DNA from: Mucilaginibacter polytrichastri | GTDB lineage: Bacteria; Bacteroidota; Bacteroidia; Sphingobacteriales; Sphingobacteriaceae | Assembly (NCBI RefSeq): GCF_001911425.1 | Contig: NZ_MPPL01000001.1 | Coordinates: forward strand, 3,636,255 to 3,700,254 | Reading direction: 5' to 3' | DNA: 64,000 bases | Shown here: positions 3,531-61,176 of the stretch, piece after piece | Layout: every line of letters begins with the position of its first letter | Numbering within the stretch: the first letter of the stretch is position 1 | The notes under the pieces: generated by a model | Seen by the model: the letters and a program-made list of their open reading frames with translations, nothing else | Database searches by the model: none | What the model was told of the DNA's origin: nothing | Position numbers and translations under genes: made by a program

Positions 3531-4529
3531 CTATAACAACTTTCGCACAATAAAAAAGGCGCCAGTTGCAGCCATACCTATTACACCAGCCAGCTTTGCC
3601 CTGCTGGTGGTTACTTTTTTAGAGGCATAACCTCCGGCTATCCTGTTAGCCTCGCCGTTGGGTTCAAATATTGTTCCGTTGGTTACCGGCTCGGGTTCGG
3701 CATTTTTAAAGTAGTGCTGCATAAATTTAAGCAGGCCGTAGCGGGTAATTTTAGGCGATATTAACTGCCCTAATTTAGCCATGTAAGCTGTGCTGCCAAT
3801 CATTACGCTATCTTTTGGATTTTGTATCAGCCTTACAATTTCGGCGGCTACCCTGGTGGTTGGTATTACCGGTGGTATTGGTTTCAGCTTTTTACCTGTA
3901 TAGTTTGCAGCATGAACCGGGCCCGGGGTATCTACAAAACCGGCGTACACATCGCAAATATGAATATGCGGAAAGTCGATCATTTCTGTACGCAGGGCTT
4001 CGGCATAACCGCGTACACCAAACTTACTGGCGGTATAAGCTACCGAGTAAGGCATAGCCACATAACCACCTGCCGAGTTCATGTTAATGATGGTGCCATA
4101 CCTTTGCTTTTTAAAATACGGCATAGCCGCATAGGCGCCGTTTAAGTAACCCATCAAGTTAGTTTGGATTACCTGGCTATGCGCTTCGAGCGGCACAGCG
4201 GTAAATTCGCCAAGCAAGCCAACGCCGGCGATGTTGATCCACACATCTATGCATCTACCGAAAATACAGGCATCCTTAGCCAGTTGCTTTACCGCATCGG
4301 CATCGGTTACATCTGTAACTACGGCAATGGCTTTGGCACCTAGGCGGTCGCAAACATCTACCAATTCATCCAGCGCTTGTTTTTGCCTGGCAGCAAGTAC
4401 CAGCTTACAGCCATACTGCGCCAGCTCAATAGCAGTTGCCCTGCCTATGCCGCTTGATGCGCCGGTGATTACAATGGTTTGTTTGTTTAACGGTTGACGG
4501 ACGTTAATTCTGGAACTCAATAAACTCAT
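3531..4529 (-). CDS. SDR family NAD(P)-dependent oxidoreductase with C-terminal membrane anchor
   Basis: 332 residues. A classical short-chain dehydrogenase core is visible: cofactor motif TGASSGIG at residues 22-29, NIAG at 99-102, catalytic Ser152, and Tyr165-x3-Lys169. The substrate is unknown. The protein is longer than a 250-residue core SDR. The extra C-terminus carries a flexible Pro/Glu/Asn-rich stretch and ends in a hydrophobic segment (LAGVIGMAATGAFFIV), which suggests tail anchoring. The pirin gene lies 91 bases upstream on the same strand. Confidence 0.88.
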   Translation of the reverse strand: MSLLSSRINVRQPLNKQTIVITGASSGIGRATAIELAQYGCKLVLAARQKQALDELVDVCDRLGAKAIAVVTDVTDADAVKQLAKDACIFGRCIDVWINIAGVGLLGEFTAVPLEAHSQVIQTNLMGYLNGAYAAMPYFKKQRYGTIINMNSAGGYVAMPYSVAYTASKFGVRGYAEALRTEMIDFPHIHICDVYAGFVDTPGPVHAANYTGKKLKPIPPVIPTTRVAAEIVRLIQNPKDSVMIGSTAYMAKLGQLISPKITRYGLLKFMQHYFKNAEPEPVTNGTIFEPNGEANRIAGGYASKKVTTSRAKLAGVIGMAATGAFFIVRKLL

Positions 4530-4620
4530 CGGCTATTTTTATTTACAGGGTAAGTTATAAGAACCCGGTTGCTTGTGAAAGGTTTATCAAAAGTTTATTT
4601 TAACCGTTGCTATTATCAGC

Positions 4621-5475
4621 CTAAAAATCCCAGCTACCGAATTTACCTTGCTGATAATCCTGGTAAGCCTGTTTTATTTCTGCCTCCGTATTCATTACAA
4701 ACGGGCCTTGCGATACCACAGGTTCATTATAAGGCATGGCATGGCCAAACAATAAGATACTTTCTGTTGCAGAAGAAATCGTCAACTCGCCGCCTTGCTG
4801 ATCAAACTCGGCCAGGTTTAATGCTTTTACTAATTTGTTGTTAGCATCCAGTTCGCCACAGATCACGTAGAAGAATACATTATGCCCTTCGGGGATGCTA
4901 AACGTTAGCTTACCGCCTGCCTTAAATTTAATGGTATTGATCTGGATACCCAAATCTGACTCAAAAGCCGGTTGAAGTCCCTCCCATTCGCCGAAGATCA
5001 GGTCAACTTCTACCTTACCCTCGTTGAGTATAATCGAAGGTATCTCAGTTTTTTGCTTCTCGACATAAAACGGATCAGACATTTTAAGCCGTGCAGGCAG
5101 GTTGACCCATAGTTGCAGGATCTCTAACGGCCCGCCTTGTTCTTTAAATTCTGCCGATGAGATTTCTGCGTGGATCAATCCGCTCCCGGCGCGCATCCAT
5201 TGTACGCCACCTGCCGTAATTACGCTTTCGTGGCCGCTACTGTCTTTGTGCGAGATATCGCCGTCAATAATAAACGTAACCGTTTCCATGCCCCTGTGCG
5301 GGTGCGGGCCAAAAGGCAGCCCCCGGTTATGTGACTTATAAACCTGCGGACCGTGATGGTTTAAAAACAAAAACGGGTCGATATAATTAACATGCTGGGT
5401 AGGCAGTGCCCGGTAAGTAACCAAATCGGCAATTGGGGCCGATACTGCTGGGTAAATATTTACAATTTGTGGCAT
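4621..5475 (-). CDS. Pirin family protein
   Basis: 284 residues, the usual length for a bacterial pirin (bicupin). The iron ligands are all visible in the N-terminal cupin: His58 and His60 in GPHPHRGMET, and His102 and Glu104 in GSGLIHAE. The C-terminal cupin contains EGHNVFFYVICGE. Family members act as redox-sensing regulators or as quercetin 2,3-dioxygenases, and sequence alone does not choose between these. The product is cytoplasmic, with no signal peptide. It stands upstream of the SDR gene on the same strand and is divergent from the MFS gene. Confidence 0.9.
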   Translation of the reverse strand: MPQIVNIYPAVSAPIADLVTYRALPTQHVNYIDPFLFLNHHGPQVYKSHNRGLPFGPHPHRGMETVTFIIDGDISHKDSSGHESVITAGGVQWMRAGSGLIHAEISSAEFKEQGGPLEILQLWVNLPARLKMSDPFYVEKQKTEIPSIILNEGKVEVDLIFGEWEGLQPAFESDLGIQINTIKFKAGGKLTFSIPEGHNVFFYVICGELDANNKLVKALNLAEFDQQGGELTISSATESILLFGHAMPYNEPVVSQGPFVMNTEAEIKQAYQDYQQGKFGSWDF

Positions 5476-5552
5476 AAAAGCATATTTGTTAAATTACAGT
5501 CGGGACGGTGCAAGGTTTTAAAAATGCTGATTTTAGGCTTTTAAAATTAATG

Positions 5553-5560
5553 TACTTTTG
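5553..5560 (+). promoter_or_regulatory. Bacteroidota -7 promoter element upstream of the MFS gene
   Basis: TACTTTTG matches TAnnTTTG exactly. A T-rich stretch (TTTTAGG at 5531) lies about 19 bases further upstream where a -33 TTTG would be expected. The ATG of the MFS gene is at 5590, giving a leader of about 20-25 bases. Confidence 0.5.
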
Positions 5561-5589
5561 CACCCAACGCACAAAAATATCAATAGTAT

Positions 5590-6756
5590 ATGACAACAGA
5601 GGGGCTCGAGGTAAAATCTGCAGCACTGCGACCGGCAGTATTAAGGGCGGCTGTTGGGGCCATGTTTTTTATGGCTGGTTTGTGCTTTGCCAGTTGGGCG
5701 TCGCGCATTGCCACCATACAGCAAAAGTTATCCCTCTCTGATGCTGCCCTGGGCGGTGTACTTTTTGCCTTACCTGTGGGCTTAATGCTCTCGCTCCCAT
5801 TTTCGGGCTGGGCGGTAAATAAAATAGGCAGCCGGTTGCTGCTAACTATTGCTATTGTTGCTTACAGTATTTTACTTATCAGCCTTGGTTCTGTTAACCA
5901 TGTTTACCAATTGGTTATTTGCCTGGTGGGTTTTGGCTTTGCCAGTAATGCCACCAATATTGCGGTAAACACGCAGGCTGTAGCTACTGAAAAAATGTAT
6001 ACCAAACCCATTATGGCTTCTTTCCACGGGCTATGGAGTTTGGCGGGCTTTACCGGTGCGGGTATAGGCACTTTGATGATCGGTAAAAATATTTTGCCCA
6101 TGTACCATTTCATGCTCATTTGCGGCATGACGGTAATTGTGGTTTTATTTTGCTGGCAATACCTGCATAATGATCGCGACGCGCATACTAACAGCGGACC
6201 TGCATTTGTGCTCCCCGATAAATCATTAATTAAGTTAGGACTGATTGCCTTTTGCTCTATGATTTGCGAGGGTGCCATGTTCGACTGGAGCGTTATTTAC
6301 TTCAAGAAAATAGTACTGGCCGAAAAAGCCTGGATAGCCGCAGGCTACACGGCCTTTATGTGTACCATGGCCACCGGCCGCTTCATAGCCGATTGGTTTG
6401 CTGCGCGTTTTGGCTTAAAAAGAACTTTACAGATCAGCGGAACGCTTACTGCTATCGGGCTAATGATCGCCGTTATATTCCCTACTTTATATACAGCAAT
6501 TGGCGGCTTCTTACTGGTGGGTTTTGGGGTATCATCTGTGGTGCCGATGGTGTACAGTGCAGCAGGGCGGTCAAAAACCATGTCGCCGGGTGCGGCAATT
6601 GCAGCAGTATCTACCATTAGCTTTGTGGGCTTTTTGGTTGGCCCGCCGGTTATCGGCTTTTTGGCCGGGGCATTTACGCTGCGGGTATCATTTACGTTTA
6701 TTGCACTGATGGGGACTTGTGTGGTGATATTGGCTACTAAGGCAAAGGTGGAATAG
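5590..6756 (+). CDS. MFS transporter
   Basis: 388 residues with twelve predicted hydrophobic segments, including AVGAMFFMAGLCFASWASRI near the start, the MFS-type loop around VNKIGSRLLLTIA after TM2, and a second half beginning LIKLGLIAFCSMICEGAMFDWSVIY. The overall pattern resembles the sugar/drug-exporter type MFS proteins related to YbjJ. The substrate cannot be told. It is followed 18 bases later by a VOC-domain gene in the same direction, so the two may be co-transcribed. A promoter element lies at 5553. Confidence 0.88.
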   Translation: MTTEGLEVKSAALRPAVLRAAVGAMFFMAGLCFASWASRIATIQQKLSLSDAALGGVLFALPVGLMLSLPFSGWAVNKIGSRLLLTIAIVAYSILLISLGSVNHVYQLVICLVGFGFASNATNIAVNTQAVATEKMYTKPIMASFHGLWSLAGFTGAGIGTLMIGKNILPMYHFMLICGMTVIVVLFCWQYLHNDRDAHTNSGPAFVLPDKSLIKLGLIAFCSMICEGAMFDWSVIYFKKIVLAEKAWIAAGYTAFMCTMATGRFIADWFAARFGLKRTLQISGTLTAIGLMIAVIFPTLYTAIGGFLLVGFGVSSVVPMVYSAAGRSKTMSPGAAIAAVSTISFVGFLVGPPVIGFLAGAFTLRVSFTFIALMGTCVVILATKAKVE

Positions 6757-6774
6757 AATAATTATTTATAGAAC

Positions 6775-7158
6775 ATGGAAATAAAGCTAAACCTGAATAC
6801 TATTATCCTCTACGTACAAGACGTAGACAACTTAAAATCTTTTTACACCGAAGTTTTCAAACTGAAGGTTATTGAGGAATACCAATCAACCTGGGCATTA
6901 CTAAAGACTGGCAACTGCCATCTCGGACTTCACAAAATTGGCGACCAATACCTCGACAAAACCAAAGGCCCATTCAAATTTGATAACAATGCCAAACTTG
7001 TATTTGAAATTGAGGAAGACCTTAACAAGGTAAGGACTCACTTAATCGATCAAAATGTGGCTATGCGGGAGATTAAGACATTCGATAATTACGCATACTG
7101 GCTGTGTGATGGAGAAGACCCGGAAGGCAATGTTTTTCAGTTAAAGCAACGGAAGTAA
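6775..7158 (+). CDS. VOC (glyoxalase/bleomycin resistance) family protein
   Basis: 127 residues, one VOC-type half-barrel pair. It opens with NLNTIILYVQDVDNLKSFYT, the typical beta-alpha start, and closes with the family's end pattern CDGEDPEGNVFQL (about 111-123). Metal-ligand positions are not fully conserved, so the activity is uncertain. The last ten codons (GNVFQLKQRK and stop) are repeated twice more downstream as part of a 147-bp tandem repeat, with Leu replaced by Phe in the second copy. Confidence 0.85.
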   Translation: MEIKLNLNTIILYVQDVDNLKSFYTEVFKLKVIEEYQSTWALLKTGNCHLGLHKIGDQYLDKTKGPFKFDNNAKLVFEIEEDLNKVRTHLIDQNVAMREIKTFDNYAYWLCDGEDPEGNVFQLKQRK

Positions 7159-7490
7159 TGTATTAAAGCAGTATGTTCATATGCAACCGCATACGTCCCG
7201 CTTGTGATAAATTTGCTGAGTAATAATTAGAATTACACAGTTTCCACAAGCGGGACGCTTGCGGTAGCAAAAGGAAATGTTTTTCAGTTCAAGCAACGGA
7301 AGTAATATATTAGAGCAGCATGTTTATTTGCTACCGCAAGCGTTCCGCTTGTGGTAAGTTTGCTAAGTAAATAATAGAATTACACAGTTTCCACAAGCGG
7401 GACGCTTGCGGTAGCAAAAGGAAATGTTTTTCAGTCCAAGCAACGGAAGTAATATATTAGAGCAGCATGTTTATAAGCTACCGCAAGCTA
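7126..7490. repeat. 147-bp tandem repeat (about 2.5 units) that includes the end of the VOC gene
   Basis: Units begin at 7126, 7273 and 7420, each spaced exactly 147 bases. The third unit is partial and ends near 7490. Each unit starts with the last ten codons plus stop of the VOC gene. It is followed by a spacer and a pair of arms (CCGCAAGCG.TCCGCTTGTGG and its reverse complement at the unit end) that form a long hairpin. Unit 1 is the most diverged, and units 2 and 3 are nearly identical over their shared part. Confidence 0.9.
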
Positions 7491-7495
7491 TTTTA

Positions 7496-7915
7496 TTATT
7501 TAAATATTCGCTTAAGCTCCCTTTTGTAGTTTTTCTTCCCAAGTACTGATCCTAATTCTGCAGATCGTTTGAGCAATTCCATAGAGAAATCGAAGTTCTG
7601 TTGGCATCCCTCTCCTTTTGCATAAAAATTCGATAAATTATTACAGGCTTCAGCATGCCTTTGATTACAAGCTTTAGTATACCAGTATATACACTTCTTG
7701 GCATTGTATATTGGATTTGGAATACCTAAAAAGCTGATATTTTCATATTGTTGCCCCATGTCATAAAGAGCTTCGATATGGCCTTTATAGGCAGCCCTTC
7801 GTATACATTCAAAATATTTGTAATACAACTTATCCCGAACCTCTTTTCCTAGATAGTCTGCATACATTTCGTTGTGAAGTGTAATCGCTAAAGCATAGAT
7901 ATTTTCACCCTTCAT
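7496..7915 (-). CDS. Sel1/TPR-like repeat protein
   Basis: 139 residues, all helical in appearance. Sel1-like repeat features are visible: AAYKGHIEALYDMGQQY (about 47-63), CIYWYTKACNQRHAEACNNLSNFYAKGEG (about 75-103) and FSMELLKRSAELGSVLGKKNY (about 109-129). Such repeats bind partner proteins. There is no signal peptide. It lies 11 bases downstream of the phosphodiesterase gene on the same strand and is probably translated from the same message. Its stop codon is directly beside the tandem repeat. Confidence 0.7.
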   Translation of the reverse strand: MKGENIYALAITLHNEMYADYLGKEVRDKLYYKYFECIRRAAYKGHIEALYDMGQQYENISFLGIPNPIYNAKKCIYWYTKACNQRHAEACNNLSNFYAKGEGCQQNFDFSMELLKRSAELGSVLGKKNYKRELKRIFK

Positions 7916-7926
7916 TACTTAATGAT

Positions 7927-8874
7927 CTACAAAGAAATCGCTTTCCCTTGCTCCGGATATATCAAATGGAGCTGTAATCTATTCTCCGCTTGTAACTGTT
8001 GCTTTATCTTAACAATGTTAGTTTGCGGTAATTTAAGGTGGGTGATAATTACATTGAAGCCTTTTAAGCCGCCTGCACCGGTCAGGGTTTCCAGGTTGGC
8101 AAATTCACTCATTAGCCATTTGGGGGTAAAGTGACCAAACAGGGTCTTATCAGGCTGTTCATCTGGGAAAGATGTTTCGATCATAATGGCCTTTAGGCTT
8201 TTGCTTTTAATCAGCGGGGCAATGGCTTCCCACAGTTTATGCATGTTGGTGCTTTTCTCAATGGCATCGGGGCCGGTATCGCCTAAGTAAAGCACGTAGC
8301 TATTATTGCTCTTTATTAAAAAGGCCGTACTGGTTAGGTTAGAGTGGCTCAGCGGGAAAGCTCTTACCGTCATCTCTGTATTTTTAATTGGTACTTCCTC
8401 GCCTGGGGTTAAGGCTTCGTAGTGGTATTTTTTAAGTACGGGCGCTTCGCCGGCATCGGCAAAGTTGGCCCAACTGGCCCAGGTAAAATAATGGGTTTCG
8501 AGTGTTTTCAGGCAGTCGGCAAAACCGTAAATATTTTTCGTGCTGTCATCGGGCGAATTCAGGATCAAGCCCGATACGTGGTCGAGGTGTGAATGTGAAA
8601 TAAAATACCCTTTAATATATTGCCTTAACACGTGTTCGGCAGGCTCGTTAAATACTTTATTAGCCACTGCTTTTTGGATGCCTGCATGAAGGGTGCCGGC
8701 ATCCAGGCAAATATAATTTTCAGAGCCTTCGGGTGCCAGCATATAAGCCGAAAGGTTGCTTTCATCGGCACCACCCAAAATACCCAGGGGTACCAGTTTA
8801 AAAGCATGTTGCGCTTTAGCCGAAACCATAACAAAACAAAAAAGCAGGGTAATAATGTGTTTTAAACGTAGCAT
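7927..8874 (-). CDS. Class II 3',5'-cyclic nucleotide phosphodiesterase, exported (MBL fold)
   Basis: 315 residues. A signal peptide (to about SAKAQ, residue 22) points to export. The metal site His94-Ser-His96-Leu-Asp98-His99-Val-Ser-Gly, followed by LILNSP, fits the class II cAMP phosphodiesterase signature (HxHLDHxxG). A later SHSNLTSTAFLI and YLGDTGPDAIE supply further metallo-beta-lactamase-type ligands, and TAFLI precedes a strand pair. Members hydrolyse cAMP or cGMP in the periplasm in other bacteria. The neighbour is a Sel1-like protein downstream. An ordinary MBL hydrolase is the alternative, but the signature is close. Confidence 0.82.
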   Translation of the reverse strand: MLRLKHIITLLFCFVMVSAKAQHAFKLVPLGILGGADESNLSAYMLAPEGSENYICLDAGTLHAGIQKAVANKVFNEPAEHVLRQYIKGYFISHSHLDHVSGLILNSPDDSTKNIYGFADCLKTLETHYFTWASWANFADAGEAPVLKKYHYEALTPGEEVPIKNTEMTVRAFPLSHSNLTSTAFLIKSNNSYVLYLGDTGPDAIEKSTNMHKLWEAIAPLIKSKSLKAIMIETSFPDEQPDKTLFGHFTPKWLMSEFANLETLTGAGGLKGFNVIITHLKLPQTNIVKIKQQLQAENRLQLHLIYPEQGKAISL

Positions 8875-8946
8875 TACAGTATTAAAATATTAAAGTACCG
8901 CAATGTATAAAACTAAAATTACAGGAATGTTAAATATCAGAAAAGA

Positions 8947-9150
8947 TCATCTTACCCCGTTATTTTTTGCCAAAACATACCGGTTTTTAAGGCAATTGGT
9001 GCAGAAGTATCTTTTAATAGGCAACCAAAACAACAGTAACTTAACCAAAGGGCCGCGGGGCACTCTTAAATGCAATATTTGTTTGCACTTTTTACAGCTA
9101 TGGTACGTTTGCTTTTGTTGAATTGGGGTCACATTCATTTGAGCAATCAT
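8947..9150 (-). CDS. Small zinc-ribbon-like protein
   Basis: 67 residues with two Cys pairs, CKKC around residue 19 and CTNC around residue 49, a likely zinc-binding knuckle, separated by a basic and hydrophobic stretch. It could also start at the second Met (residue 5). No family is recognised. A divergent shorter frame at 8903-9121 on the other strand has no such pattern and is taken as its shadow. Confidence 0.45.
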   Translation of the reverse strand: MIAQMNVTPIQQKQTYHSCKKCKQILHLRVPRGPLVKLLLFWLPIKRYFCTNCLKNRYVLAKNNGVR

Positions 9151-54280: not shown

Positions 54281-54724
54281 ATGAACATCACAACTTACAT
54301 AGCCATCACCCTCCTCACCATCGCCATAATGGAAGCACTCTCATGGGCGATGCATAAGTACTTGTTCCATGGGCCACTATGGTTTATCCATAAAACACAT
54401 CACGGGCACAACAAGCACAAATGGTTTGAATTGAATGATATATTTAGTATCCTGTTTGCCGGGTTATCCTTATGGCTGATGTGGGCTGGTCATTTTAATT
54501 TAGATTATCGAATGTGGATTGGTGTCGGTATTAGCTTATATGGTATAATATACTTCATTTTTCACGATTGGTTTATTCATAACCGCTTTAAGCCTTTTAA
54601 AACCAACAATGGCTATCTGCTAAATATCCGCAGGGCGCACAAGATCCATCATAAAAGTATGAAGAAATGGCCAAGTGAAGAGTTCGGGTTGCTGGTGGCG
54701 AGCAAGAAGTATGGGAAGAAGTAG
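54281..54724 (+). CDS. crtZ: Beta-carotene hydroxylase (CrtZ-like, sterol desaturase superfamily)
   Basis: 147 residues. It hydroxylates beta-ionone rings to give zeaxanthin-type products. The histidine motifs of the non-haem di-iron hydroxylases are complete: His25-x4-His30 (HKYLFH), His37-x2-His40-His41 (HKTHH), HDWFIH around residue 88, and HKIHH near 122-126. Two or more membrane helices are visible. Although 4 kb from crtI/crtB, its presence fits the carotenoid cluster. murB follows after a family A repeat. Confidence 0.9.
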   Translation: MNITTYIAITLLTIAIMEALSWAMHKYLFHGPLWFIHKTHHGHNKHKWFELNDIFSILFAGLSLWLMWAGHFNLDYRMWIGVGISLYGIIYFIFHDWFIHNRFKPFKTNNGYLLNIRRAHKIHHKSMKKWPSEEFGLLVASKKYGKK

Positions 54725-56968: not shown

Positions 56969-58459
56969 TCACTTATCCTTAAAATACTTAATCACCTCCC
57001 CTGCCGCAACCTGCCCGGATATTAATGCAGGCGGCACACCCGGGCCCGGCACCGTAAGCTGACCGGTATATAACATATTCTTAACCTTCCTGGCGCGCAT
57101 ACTTGGTTTAAAAAATGCCGTTTGTGACAGGATATTCGATAATCCGTAAGCATTACCTTTAAACGAATGGTAATCTGCCTTAAAATCATCCAGTGCATAG
57201 CTACGCTTTACTACAATATGGTTGCGGATATTGGAACCGGTAATTCGCTCAAAACGATCCAGCATCAGGTCGAAGTATTTTTCACGGGTATCGGCATTGT
57301 CTTCCAGTCCGGGAGCAATGGGCATCAGAAAAAAAAGATTCTCACCATTAGCCGGGGCAACATTATCATCAGTTTTAGAAGTGCAGGCAACATAAAACAA
57401 AGGCTTATCCGGCCACTTAGGCTGGGTGTAAATATCGGCAGCATGCTGTTCAAAATCTTCGTCGAAGAATAAGTTATGATGCTGGATGCCCTCTATCTTA
57501 CAATTAGTGCCAATATAGAATAATAAGCTCGATGGAGACATAACCCGCTTGTCCCAATATTCTGGACTGTAATTACGATCTGCTTTCGTTAACAGAGTTT
57601 GGTCTACGTGCTCATAATCGGCACCGGCTACTACAAAATCGGCTTTAAAATCTCCTTGGTTAGTTTTTATATTAGAGACAACTCCGGCTGCCGTTTCAAT
57701 CGAAAGCACCTCTGTATTTAGTTTAATCTCTACGCCTAGTTCCTCGGCAGTTTTAACCATGGCTTTCACAATTTCGTGCATGCCACCCATTGGGTACCAG
57801 GTACCCAATGCCAGGTCGGCATAGTTCATCATGCTGTACATTGCCGGAGTGTCCTGTGCCGTGGCACCCAGAAACAATACCGGGAACTCCAGCATTTTAA
57901 TCAGCTTCGGGTTTTTAAAGTATTTACGCACATGCTTGCTCATGCTGGTAAGCAATTGGATACTGAAACTTTTTTTAATAAGGTTCCAATCAATAAACTC
58001 ACCTATATTATGCGAAGGGCGAAATACGTATTCGCCCATGCCAACCTTATATTTATATTCGGCTTGCTGTAAAAATTCTTTTAGTCTGGTGCTGCTGCCG
58101 GGTTCCAGTTCTTCAAACAAGGCTTCGAGTTGCTGCATATCGGCAGGCACATCCATAAAATCAGCTTTACCGTAATAAATGCGGTAACCTGGATCAAGGC
58201 GTTTCAAATCATAAAAATCTGACGGCTTGTGCCCAAACAAAGCAAAATAATTTTCGAACACATCCGGCATCCAATACCAGCTGGGGCCCATATCAAACTT
58301 AAAACCATCAGATTCCCAGATGCGTGCACGCCCACCAGGCTGATCGTTTTTTTCTAAAATAGTAACTTTAAAGCCCGCCTTAGCCAAAACGCTGGCGGCA
58401 GACAGGCCGGCAAAACCGGCACCGATAATAATAATATTGGGGGGTGTGCTATTATTCAT
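56969..58459 (-). CDS. crtI: Phytoene desaturase
   Basis: 496 residues, full size. It converts phytoene to lycopene by several FAD-dependent steps. The N-terminal FAD site is IIGAGFAGLSAASVLAKAG and EKNDQPGGRARIW, and the C-terminal YTGQLTVPGPGVPPALISGQVAA is the family's signature. It is divergent from crtB across 93 bases that must hold both promoters. The region before it shows no other gene. Confidence 0.95.
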   Translation of the reverse strand: MNNSTPPNIIIIGAGFAGLSAASVLAKAGFKVTILEKNDQPGGRARIWESDGFKFDMGPSWYWMPDVFENYFALFGHKPSDFYDLKRLDPGYRIYYGKADFMDVPADMQQLEALFEELEPGSSTRLKEFLQQAEYKYKVGMGEYVFRPSHNIGEFIDWNLIKKSFSIQLLTSMSKHVRKYFKNPKLIKMLEFPVLFLGATAQDTPAMYSMMNYADLALGTWYPMGGMHEIVKAMVKTAEELGVEIKLNTEVLSIETAAGVVSNIKTNQGDFKADFVVAGADYEHVDQTLLTKADRNYSPEYWDKRVMSPSSLLFYIGTNCKIEGIQHHNLFFDEDFEQHAADIYTQPKWPDKPLFYVACTSKTDDNVAPANGENLFFLMPIAPGLEDNADTREKYFDLMLDRFERITGSNIRNHIVVKRSYALDDFKADYHSFKGNAYGLSNILSQTAFFKPSMRARKVKNMLYTGQLTVPGPGVPPALISGQVAAGEVIKYFKDK

Positions 58460-58531: not shown

Positions 58532-58552
58532 ATTATAGCGCTGATGACCCCC

Positions 58553-59386
58553 ATGACATTATACGATGAAACTTGTTTCGAGTGCAGTAAGCTAATCACA
58601 GCCAAATACAGCACATCTTTCAGTAAAGGAATTAAATCTTTTGATAAACGTTTTCGTAATCCTATTTACGCCATCTATGGCTTTGTAAGGTATGCCGATG
58701 AGATAGTAGACACCTTCCATGAACACGATAAATTACAACTGATCAGTGAGTTCAGAGCCGATGCTTTTGAGGCTATTTCTCGCGGTATCAGTACCAACCC
58801 TGTGCTGCAATCTTTCCAACAGGTGGTTAATCAATATGGCATCCATCATGATCTTATCGATTCGTTTTTACGATCTATGGAAATGGACCTGGATAACAAG
58901 GTTTATAACCGCGAAAGTTATTGCACCTACATCTACGGCTCGGCCGAAGTAATTGGACTAATGTGCCTGCAGGTGTTTTGCGAAAACGACACCGTATTAT
59001 ACGAGCAACTGCGACCCAAAGCATGCAGCCTTGGAGCGGCATTTCAAAAAATCAACTTTTTGCGCGACGTAAAGTCAGATTTTGAAGAGCGTGGCCGTAC
59101 CTACTTTCCTAACATTGATTTTAATAACTTTACAGAAACAGATAAGCAACATATAGAAAAGGAGATAAAACGCGATTTTGATGCAGCTTTAGAAGGCATT
59201 ATAAAACTGCCCACTGGCGCTAAACTGGGTGTTTATGTGGCTTACGTATATTACCTGCAGCTCTTTAAAAAAATAAGCCAGACACCAGCAAGTATCATCG
59301 TACAAAAACGCATCCGGATATCTAACAGGCGTAAAATAGCGTTGTACTTTAAAGCAGTGTTGCAGCAAAAGTTAAAAGCAATTTAA
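58553..59386 (+). CDS. crtB: Phytoene synthase
   Basis: About 277 residues from the ATG at 58553. The ATG at 58544 is three codons longer and also possible. It joins two geranylgeranyl diphosphates to phytoene. The two Asp-rich motifs are GFVRYADEIVDTFHEHD and INFLRDVKSDFEERGRTYF. The rest matches trans-isoprenyl diphosphate synthase folds (FRADAFEAISRG, SAEVIGLMCLQVFC). The stop codon overlaps the ATG of the next gene by one base (TAATG). Confidence 0.95.
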   Translation: MTLYDETCFECSKLITAKYSTSFSKGIKSFDKRFRNPIYAIYGFVRYADEIVDTFHEHDKLQLISEFRADAFEAISRGISTNPVLQSFQQVVNQYGIHHDLIDSFLRSMEMDLDNKVYNRESYCTYIYGSAEVIGLMCLQVFCENDTVLYEQLRPKACSLGAAFQKINFLRDVKSDFEERGRTYFPNIDFNNFTETDKQHIEKEIKRDFDAALEGIIKLPTGAKLGVYVAYVYYLQLFKKISQTPASIIVQKRIRISNRRKIALYFKAVLQQKLKAI

Positions 59387-59928
59387 TGATTAAAAAGTAT
59401 TTACTATTCCTGGTGCTTATTCTAACCACTGTAATTGGTTTGGCAGACAGTCCGCAGCCCAATATAGCCAACCTGCGTAAACAGCTGATGCAAGCCATTG
59501 ACCGTAAACAAACCACAGATTCATTATACCAAAGCCTGGGCTCAATGGAACAACGGTCGGGCTTAATTAATGGCTATATGGGTGCTTTAGAGGCGCTCAA
59601 AGCCAAACATACCTGGAACCCATACTACAAAATCAAATACCTTAATGACGCCGAAGGCACCTTTAAACAGGCCGTTTCACAAGATCCGCATAACATAGAG
59701 ATCAGGTTTATGCGATTTTCTGTTGAGCATAATGTACCGGGCTTTTTGGGCTATAACAAAAACCTAGCTATAGACAAGCAAGAAATGATCCGCCAGATTG
59801 AGTTAAAAAACTATGGCACTGCAGATAAAGAACTGGTAGTAACGGTTATTAAATTTATGATCGATTCCAAACAGTGTAATAGTGATGAAAACACAAGCCT
59901 CCATAAACAGTTAGCTGCCCTAAAGTGA
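59386..59928 (+). CDS. Unknown exported protein in the carotenoid operon
   Basis: 180 residues with a hydrophobic N-terminus (LLFLVLILTTVIGLADS) that looks like a signal peptide. The mature part is helical (ANLRKQLMQAIDRKQTTDSLYQSLGSM; MGALEALKAKHTWNPYYKIKYL; DPHNIEIRFMRFSVEHNVPGFLGYN). I do not recognise a family. It overlaps crtB by one base upstream and the lycopene cyclase gene by 4 bases downstream, so it is translated with them and is likely to act with carotenoids. Confidence 0.85.
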   Translation: MIKKYLLFLVLILTTVIGLADSPQPNIANLRKQLMQAIDRKQTTDSLYQSLGSMEQRSGLINGYMGALEALKAKHTWNPYYKIKYLNDAEGTFKQAVSQDPHNIEIRFMRFSVEHNVPGFLGYNKNLAIDKQEMIRQIELKNYGTADKELVVTVIKFMIDSKQCNSDENTSLHKQLAALK

Positions 59929-60608
59929 AATATACCTACCTGCTTATTAACTTGCTAACGGTTATTTTCCCAATTGCGCTGTCGTTTGATAAAAGGGTGC
60001 ATTTTTATAAAAACTGGCGGTTTATATGGCCGGGCATGGCTATTACCGGTTTAATCTTTTTATTTTGGGATGTGTTATTCACTGTTAAAGGCGTATGGTC
60101 ATTTAACGATCATTACATTATCGGCATCCGTATATTTCAGCTTCCGCTGGAAGAAGTACTTTTTTTCCTCACGGTGCCTTTCTCCTGCATTTTTATTTAC
60201 GAATGCCTTAACTATTACGTTAAATGGCAAATACCACAGGGGTTTAGTAAAGCTATATCAGTTGCACTAATGCTGGTTAGCTTAGTGCTTGCGGTTGTGT
60301 ACCCAAACAGCTTATATACCATAGTTACCTTCAGCCTGCTTTATGCCTTAACAGGTTTGGTGCAGTTAATATTTAAAGCACAATGGCTTAACCGTTTTTA
60401 TTTGGCCTTTATAGTAAGCCTGATACCATTTTATGTTGTGAATGGCATATTAACATCTATCCCGATTGTACTATACAATAATCATCAAAATATGGGCTTA
60501 AGGATAGGCACTATTCCCTTTGAAGATCATTTTTACTCTATGACCCTATTGATGATGAATGTAGGCTTTTTTGAATACTTCAGGCATAAAAAAACCAGCC
60601 CTGTATGA
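59925..60608 (+). CDS. Lycopene cyclase, fused small-subunit type
   Basis: 227 residues from a GTG at 59925 that overlaps the previous stop (GTGA). Seven or so membrane helices. Two repeats of the short lycopene cyclase domain are visible, each with a PLEE-like motif: FQLPLEEVLFFLTVPFSCIF at about 67-86 and TIPFEDHFYSMTLLMMNVGF near 195-215. This is the CrtYcd fused form related to CarR/CrtYc-CrtYd heterodimers and lycopene epsilon/beta cyclases. It overlaps the next gene by 4 bases. Confidence 0.9.
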   Translation: MKYTYLLINLLTVIFPIALSFDKRVHFYKNWRFIWPGMAITGLIFLFWDVLFTVKGVWSFNDHYIIGIRIFQLPLEEVLFFLTVPFSCIFIYECLNYYVKWQIPQGFSKAISVALMLVSLVLAVVYPNSLYTIVTFSLLYALTGLVQLIFKAQWLNRFYLAFIVSLIPFYVVNGILTSIPIVLYNNHQNMGLRIGTIPFEDHFYSMTLLMMNVGFFEYFRHKKTSPV

Positions 60609-60841
60609 GCGAACTACCTGTGTATACCAAATCGCAGCTGGCCTTGCGTAACGGGCAGGATAAGCCACAGATATGGGTTGCCCTCAACGGCATTATTTAT
60701 GACGTTACCGAAAGCCGACTGTGGCGCAACGGCAAACATTACGAGCATTGGGCCGGCCAGGATTTAACAGCCGAACTGGCTGACGCCCCACATACAGAAA
60801 CAGTATTTGAGAAGTTTGTAGTTGTGGGGAGTTTGGGCTAA
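60605..60841 (+). CDS. Small cytochrome b5-like heme-binding domain protein
   Basis: 78 residues. The fold pattern YTKSQLALRNGQDKPQIWVALNGIIYDVTESRLW and HYEHWAGQDLTAELADAPHTETVFEKFVVVG fits cytochrome b5-like domains of the MAPR-like bacterial type. The classical HPGG is absent. The nearest His are in KHYEHWAG and PHTET. It may bind heme or a steroid or carotenoid. It is translated with the cyclase gene (ATGA overlap) and ends before a terminator. Confidence 0.8.
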   Translation: MSELPVYTKSQLALRNGQDKPQIWVALNGIIYDVTESRLWRNGKHYEHWAGQDLTAELADAPHTETVFEKFVVVGSLG

Positions 60842-60993: not shown

Positions 60994-61176
60994 TTATTTA
61001 GTCGCTGTGTTTTTTGATTCCTGAACTTCTAAACGGATAGCCTGAGCTAAGTTTTTTAAGTCTTGCATACCCTTACGAACGCGTGTTCCGGCAGCGCTGT
61101 TACCTTTGTTGTAGAATTTGTCCGCATCACCTTCCAAAGAGGCGATCAGATCTTTCACTTCAGTAAATTTTTTCAT
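60994..61176 (-). CDS. Histone H1-like small protein
   Basis: 60 residues, highly basic with balanced acids. Sequence KKFTEVKDLIASLEGDADKFYNKGNSAAGTRVRKGMQDLKNLAQAIRLEVQE matches the small proteins called histone H1 in Sphingobacteriaceae, thought to bind DNA. The ATG is preceded by GGAGTAAC at about 61182-61189, an unusually good Shine-Dalgarno sequence for this group, which fits a highly expressed protein. Confidence 0.85.
   Translation of the reverse strand: MKKFTEVKDLIASLEGDADKFYNKGNSAAGTRVRKGMQDLKNLAQAIRLEVQESKNTATK

Follow-up and report, generated by a model that had tools for sequence, protein, structure and literature searches.

An exported protein family linked to carotenoid, flexirubin and dialkylresorcinol gene clusters of Bacteroidota

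A 64,000-nucleotide stretch of the Mucilaginibacter polytrichastri genome, called the window below, contains a carotenoid operon in which the phytoene synthase gene crtB is followed on the plus strand by a gene for a 180-residue exported protein (here named X), a fused lycopene cyclase gene (crtYcd) and a gene for a 78-residue cytochrome b5-like protein (b5). We found that relatives of X are tied to carotenoid, flexirubin and dialkylresorcinol clusters across Bacteroidota, and this association is well supported. Our preferred reading, to which we give a probability of about 0.4, is that X is a Sec-exported periplasmic protein that handles polyene pigments and that b5 is a separate resident of the locus, not a dedicated electron donor to the carotene hydroxylase CrtZ. 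A preliminary description of the window had reported the four genes with overlaps of 1 to 4 bases, and the coordinates, which give successive overlaps of 1, 4 and 4 bases, confirm them. It had also suggested that X carries or places carotenoids in the envelope; the link to pigment genes and a gene fusion make such a role reasonable, while its mechanism is something that we infer.

Pigment clusters that carry X

Relatives of X were mapped at 125 loci, comprising 120 of the 178 distinct match places, picked to spread over genera, and five loci from named genomes. Rule-based reading of the neighbouring genes placed 116 of them in a pigment gene context: 91 in carotenoid loci, 15 in flexirubin-type clusters, seven before darA/darB in dialkylresorcinol clusters and three in fused genes, the remaining nine being classed as other. 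The conservation of X beside crt genes, which the preliminary description had proposed as a check, extends over many families, and with 91 of 125 loci being carotenoid the protein does not occur mostly apart from carotenoid genes. X directly follows crtB in 72 of the carotenoid loci; the 19 counted as having no adjacent crtB include L150 and L189, although the maps put crtB (L150) or a CruF-CrtB gene (L189) beside X there. The crtB-adjacent arrangement occurs in eleven family groups (f1, f3, f4, f5, f7, f9, f13, f14, f17, f30 and f35) and, beyond these, in five named Sphingobacteriaceae loci. Because the genes downstream of X vary (crtYcd, idi, crtZ and others), crtB and X form the constant unit. 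Where crtB lies elsewhere in the genome, X is still found with crtYcd (L093 to L098, L100, L102 and L103), in most cases also with crtI; at L097, L102 and L103 neither crtB nor crtI is present at the X locus.

All 15 copies in flexirubin-type clusters have a FabA-like dehydratase gene within three genes and are followed immediately by a family-2 glycosyltransferase gene. An MMPL-type protein is encoded within three genes of X in 11 of the 15 and LolA within seven genes in 14, and no crtB was found within seven genes in any of them. Scans of flexirubin representatives with curated models returned FabA, GT2, LolA (L175), LolB2 of flexirubin clusters (L177) and MMPL (L172), and DarB was matched in L197. 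The seven dialkylresorcinol copies stand beside DarB-type genes and their neighbours, which we take to be darA; the DarA-like proteins that were scanned gave no NCBIfam match. Clusters of this flx/dar type have been described from Chitinophaga pinensis and Flavobacterium johnsoniae (PMC3992019, PMC11885536). For export, the accessible text of those papers proposes LolA, LolB, acyltransferase, glycosyltransferase and exporter genes, and X goes unmentioned in it. At the flexirubin locus L172, the MMPL-type protein adjoining X (3886-7572) has an extra C-terminal acyltransferase domain (PF01553), and it matches models of sterol and hopanoid transporters of the resistance-nodulation-division (RND) type (BstA, HpnN) far below their cut-offs.

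The genome of the window itself carries a second, distant X (24% identity, E 8e-5) before darA/darB-like genes (L199, G000:C1:4945100-4963300), and it therefore also seems to have a dialkylresorcinol-type cluster. L002 likewise has a second distant X directly before darA/darB-like genes.

In three loci from different family groups (L182, L190 and L194), X forms the C-terminal part of an 810-853 residue CruF-CrtB-X protein that carries PF04240 (carotenoid biosynthesis, CruF type) and PF00494 (phytoene synthase); X can thus be part of the same polypeptide as the enzyme. Read by eye, each fusion has a hydrophobic, signal-like stretch ahead of X that ends in an Ala-x-Ala-like motif. At L186, L188 and L189, a CruF-CrtB gene (Pfam-confirmed in L188) precedes X, here a gene of its own, and then come an acyltransferase gene and a crtI-like gene, an arrangement resembling the salinixanthin operon of Rhodothermus marinus, whose four genes, in the accessible part of PMC5822342, include those for CrtB, CrtI and the acyltransferase CruD, the fourth being unnamed there. 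These three loci would belong to Rhodothermus. For R. marinus, a strain with crtBI knocked out is available (PMC5822342). The PF04240 domain stands at the N-terminus of the phytoene synthase in L182, L188, L190 and L194; if these are Rhodothermia, it could be the 1',2'-hydratase, an enzyme reported as not found in the same part of the R. marinus paper (PMC5822342).

A tree of 125 X domains, built by a quick method with support only from the Shimodaira-Hasegawa-like approximate likelihood ratio test (SH-aLRT), is sorted by pathway. Mapping the pathway contexts onto it takes 5 changes, where shuffled contexts take 28.9. All 15 flexirubin copies fall into a single clade (support 97) and all seven dialkylresorcinol copies into another (99); the contig-end fragment L106, counted among the other contexts, was omitted. 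L205, a flexirubin X from the window's family, groups with those of other families, which indicates that the copies there follow the pathway and not host taxonomy. Over 68 loci, the correlation of tree distances was 0.71 for X and crtB, 0.73 for crtB and crtI, and 0.57 for X and crtI.

Gene content points the same way. Profile A1 was made from Mucilaginibacter-type X proteins and the broader profile A4 from 56 diverse members; both found X in 99 of the 121 genomes of the window's family, and in the phylum sample of 395 genomes A1 found it in 69 and A4 in 79, nine of the 79 with matches weaker than 1e-20. Among the 121 family genomes, 88 have both X and crtB, 11 only X, five only crtB and 17 neither (odds ratio 27; p 1.5e-9, which, like the p-values in all samples here, overstates because the genomes are related and not independent). 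For the phylum count, crtB was taken as strong at 230 bits or more, and the nine genomes whose sole X match was weaker than E 1e-20 were dropped; 58 genomes then have both, 12 only X, 51 only crtB and 274 neither (odds ratio 26). Six of the 12 genomes with X only (G122, G127, G149, G270, G333 and G368) are of the CruF-CrtB type, and their CruF-CrtB synthase falls outside the strong crtB matches.

Sequence and predicted structure of X

Judged from its sequence, X (59386..59928, plus strand) is an undescribed protein family of its own. The preliminary description had called it unrecognised, and the window protein indeed has no Pfam or NCBIfam match above threshold, its best hit among tetratricopeptide repeat (TPR) profiles being TPR_19 at E 0.094, below the cut-off. 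No curated family was matched consistently by the 56 diverse members: four Pfam families match one member each (among them YfiO, E 1e-4, and TPR_19, E 0.0056), the NCBIfam search gave four single matches, and LolA (PF03548) was matched by neither the window protein nor any of the 56. A PDB sequence search with X alone returned only a designed protein (E 6), and the broad profile reached at best E 0.067, for a designed repeat protein. No description of X was found in the accessible text of the carotenoid and flexirubin literature searched, and a mention by locus tag outside it is possible. The window protein has a hydrophobic N-terminus, as do 121 of the 122 unfused members by a simple hydropathy rule; the exception is a contig-end fragment.

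AlphaFold2 models of the full-length protein (predicted local distance difference test score, pLDDT, 85.5; predicted template modelling score, pTM, 0.80) and of its mature part (pLDDT 87.3, pTM 0.77) are all-helical, and X is predicted to be loosely TPR-like. With VIA-align, the best match of the full-length model was to 14-3-3 (Z 11.9 over 154 residues, root-mean-square deviation (rmsd) 3.6, the signal region included), and that of the mature part was to the TPR domain of PTPIP51 (Z 12.6 over 93 residues, rmsd 2.9). Both Z values fall in the range of unrelated helical models, and the fold match is not significant. Membership in the TPR family was rejected as a claim because the profile match is below the curated cut-off and no fold match is significant; a LolA-like identity was rejected on the missing PF03548 match and the all-helical model.

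One could envision a kinship with BstC, a TPR-like bacterial sterol-binding protein (PDB 7T1S) which, like X, is small and helical and which serves a hydrophobic-lipid transport system, as set out in the accessible part of PMC10942540. The structural match to 7t1s (Foldseek E 0.29; Z 9.5 over 95 residues, rmsd 3.4) is not significant, and the 230-residue BstC chain is not among the PDB matches of the broad X profile, so that a claim of membership was again rejected. BstC comes from another phylum. The haemophore HusA gave a Foldseek E of 1.2 against mature X. We treat the resemblances of the models and neighbours to BstC, HusA and BstA/HpnN as possible leads, not as evidence.

The operon and its cytochrome b5 gene

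In the window, the overlapping unit begins with crtB (58544..59386, plus strand; PF00494, E 3e-44), for which there are two candidate starts, ATG 58544 (280 residues) and ATG 58553 (277 residues). X overlaps its end by 1 base and is overlapped by 4 bases by crtYcd (59925..60608, plus strand, GTG start, 227 residues; PF18916, E 3e-41; TIGR03462, E 2e-30). Two stretches of the CrtYcd protein are matched by each of PF18916 and TIGR03462, that is, two CarR/CrtYc-d domains lie in one chain, and by this domain criterion the protein is a fused heterodimer-type lycopene cyclase, as the preliminary description had it. The b5 gene (60605..60841, plus strand; PF00173, E 3e-9) overlaps crtYcd by 4 bases. 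Divergent from the unit lies crtI (56969..58459, minus strand), whose product matches the NCBIfam CrtID model of a bifunctional phytoene desaturase/3,4-desaturase well past its cut-off (NF058655, E 2e-227), a hint that the product may be a 3',4'-didehydro carotenoid instead of plain zeaxanthin. Outside the unit, some 4 kb upstream and ahead of murB and a gene for an extracytoplasmic function (ECF) sigma factor, is a gene for a crtZ-like beta-carotene hydroxylase of 147 residues (54281..54724, plus strand; PF04116 FA_hydroxylase, E 2e-10); the names CrtZ and murB for the window genes come from no profile. Homologues of crtZ are near X in many related loci. Just past the operon on the minus strand (60994-61176) is a 60-residue Hc1 histone-H1-like gene (PF07432, E 1e-26).

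Fused CrtYcd is already known from Bacteroidota (PMC2889829, PMC10784355, each in the part accessible). The carotenoid clusters of Algoriphagus sp. KK10202C and oki45 have, like the window, crtB, crtI and a fusion-type crtYcd; unlike the window operon, they include neither an exported protein nor a b5 gene in the accessible description (PMC10784355). Since operons with fused CrtYcd are known and X was not found described, the operon is of a known kind with an undescribed component.

The order of divergent crtI followed by crtB, X, crtYcd and b5 is kept in 34 of 34 related loci (33 from Mucilaginibacter and one from a Sphingobacteriaceae metagenome-assembled genome (MAG)), which are close relatives because X itself served as the search query; this gene arrangement is not chance. 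At L011 b5 runs past the contig end. At L016, from a Mucilaginibacter MAG, crtI is split into two open reading frames (ORFs; 7569-9068), a broken gene or an assembly error. The overlaps are frequent without being universal. Of the 72 crtB-adjacent loci, 49 have crtB and X overlapping or abutting, and crtYcd and b5 do so in 33 of 41, figures that lean high because the longest possible ORF was taken, and the overlap is exactly 4 or 1 bases in 31 of the 72 and 23 of the 41. The earlier statement that overlap forces co-translation was thus too strong.

The b5 protein exceeds the gathering threshold of PF00173 (37.4 bits against 23.7), and it matches the PDB entry 6nzx (E 3e-17); by these matches it is a genuine relative of the b5-fold family. 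It has the length, family and conserved histidines of the small archaeal and bacterial cytochromes b5 (PDB 6NZX, 6VZ6). His45, Tyr46, His48 and His63 are invariant in 14 aligned sequences, putative axial ligands among them, and no HPGG motif was seen by eye. One scenario, put forward in the preliminary description, is that b5 passes electrons to CrtZ or to a ketolase. The invariant histidines are in keeping with it, as are the overlap or abutment with crtYcd, the presence of crtB in 76 of the 95 family genomes with b5, and the nature of the homologue 6nzx, a b-type cytochrome (PMC7096707, accessible part). Comparison of the 121 family genomes makes this scenario very improbable. Both b5 and crtZ occur in 65 genomes, b5 alone in 30, crtZ alone in 17 and neither in nine (odds ratio 1.15, p 0.81), so that 30 of the 95 b5 genomes have no crtZ and 17 crtZ genomes have no b5. 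With crtB, the corresponding counts are 76, 19, 17 and nine; b5 genomes do mostly carry carotenoid genes, but the co-occurrence is not significantly above chance (p 0.12). Eighteen genomes have b5 and neither crtB nor crtZ, and 17 of these are listed as at least 99% complete (G009, 71%).

Twenty b5 loci, chosen because b5 seemed not to be with X, were read individually. In eight of them crtYcd lies directly upstream of b5. In ten, b5 is preceded by the ECF sigma gene, in most cases together with murB, with no crt gene between; in L221 and L222 b5 is at other places. A pfkB kinase gene lies within three genes downstream of b5 in 14 of the 20, and 11 of the loci come from the 18 genomes that have neither crtB nor crtZ; nine of these 11 loci keep the same ECF neighbourhood. 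L228 (G071, listed as 99% complete) has an orphan cyclase, with crtYcd and b5 at the murB-ecf locus and no crtB or crtZ found. In a phylum sample of 198 genomes, b5 is present in 13, five from the window's family and eight from groups f8 and f9. It is also present in L031, L101, L111, L113, L114 and L117, where antisense ORFs overlie it (in L101 also crtYcd). The tie of b5 to the crt genes looks positional: b5 appears to belong as an ordinary gene to a murB-ecf-b5-pfkB neighbourhood, with the crt genes as its neighbours there. A dedicated CrtZ partner was rejected on the nil association and on the presence of b5 where crt genes are absent; b5 may have a general redox function from which CrtZ, too, benefits in some species. 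No title reporting a bacterial CrtZ paired with a b5 was found among the papers listed by a literature search on b5 and carotenoid hydroxylases. Because b5 is not significantly tied to crtB or crtZ, the shared job once suggested for the four genes is not supported, and we rejected the four as one functional unit.

Possible roles of X

One possible explanation for why the same family stands in such different clusters begins with the products. Carotenoids and flexirubins arise by unrelated chemistries, yet both are long, water-insoluble polyenes, which suggests that X would most likely act after the backbone has been made. Exported by Sec through its putative signal, X would pick up the polyene, complete or almost so, on the periplasmic side of the inner membrane and would either hold it or hand it onward for placement in the envelope. 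Flexirubin is located in the outer membrane, and its cluster has genes proposed for export, in the accessible parts of PMC3992019 and PMC11885536. We suggest, tentatively, that one exported helical family is a common envelope component of unrelated polyene pigment systems, binding and placing the polyene itself. If this is true, X would act as a carrier or chaperone for polyenes in general, serving carotenoids (including those of the CruF-CrtB fusions) and the polyketide-type flexirubin alike; for bacterial carotenoid operons, no example of such a carrier was found in the literature searched.

Several observations weigh against a role of X in handling the pigment. Clear X is absent from 51 of the 109 phylum genomes with strong crtB and X stands beside crtB in only 31 of the 109, judged by eye from coordinates; as far as gene content tells, X is dispensable for having carotenoid genes. 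In G037, G063 and G090, only about 50 bases or fewer separate crtB from crtZ, which leaves no room for X between them. In G038, G052, G078 and G117 the roughly 500 bases between the two genes gave no X match by either profile, though a diverged X may lie there. The best Foldseek match of the X model, a TPR protein at E 0.05, is not significant, nor is that of the mature part (E 0.21). The most conserved residues among the 56 members (Arg31, Lys82, Glu105, Arg110, Pro118 and Asp130) are mostly charged and do not plainly point to a hydrophobic pocket. The X of the fusions, if tethered to the membrane, would be hard to square with a freely moving shuttle, unless the signal-like segment inside the chain is cut. 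In 14 of the 15 flexirubin loci a gene for a CrtI-family oxidoreductase lies within seven genes of X, so that X could serve that shared step instead. Finally, eight mapped copies have no recognised pigment context, seven from genus g16 and one at L164.

On the X tree, two of these eight, L207 (g16) and L164, are placed with copies from carotenoid loci. The other six (L139, L141, L144, L147, L203 and L208) are an extra X copy of genus g16, forming one clade (support 100) outside pigment clusters, with DUF3307 genes (L139, L141, L208) or DUF2807 genes (L144, L203) as neighbours; a non-pigment role of the family is possible for them.

The alternative that we take most seriously, while holding it doubtful, is a scaffolding or assembly role: in the periplasm, X would join membrane-bound pigment enzymes through TPR-like contacts and never touch the pigment. 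This would account for the TPR-like helical model, for the charge of the conserved residues, for a fusion that keeps X at the enzyme, for the common inheritance of X and crtB seen in the distance correlation, and for the CrtI-family oxidoreductases near X in carotenoid and flexirubin clusters alike. It is less easily reconciled with the retention of X beside crtYcd at loci that lack crtB (and, in the case of L097, L102 and L103, crtI as well), nor does it readily explain why this family should also serve flexirubin, the backbone of which is built by enzymes of the fatty-acid-synthase type (PMC3992019, accessible part). We rank handling of the polyene above a scaffold. A further scenario makes X an enzyme or a ligand sensor for polyenes, working for instance on their isomer state or on photo-oxidised products. 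The few near-invariant polar residues over 56 diverse members could serve such an activity; helical-repeat folds are seldom catalytic and X has no consistent match to an enzyme family, and we think that this is unlikely. That X is simply a passenger, without any function in pigment biology, as the strong-crtB genomes without clear X and the eight copies outside pigment clusters might suggest, is scarcely credible given the fusion, the pathway-sorted tree, the linkage in eleven family groups and the retention of X after crtB has moved, all of which it would leave hard to explain.

The route by which insoluble carotenoids and flexirubins travel from where they are made to their place in the Gram-negative envelope is little understood, and for flexirubin the mechanism is called unknown in the accessible text of PMC3992019. 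In the case of b5, operon overlap alone had made a protein look pigment-related, which the comparison of 121 genomes does not bear out. The X family marks both pathways and is fused to CruF-CrtB in some genomes, and it thus offers a concrete gene for genetics.

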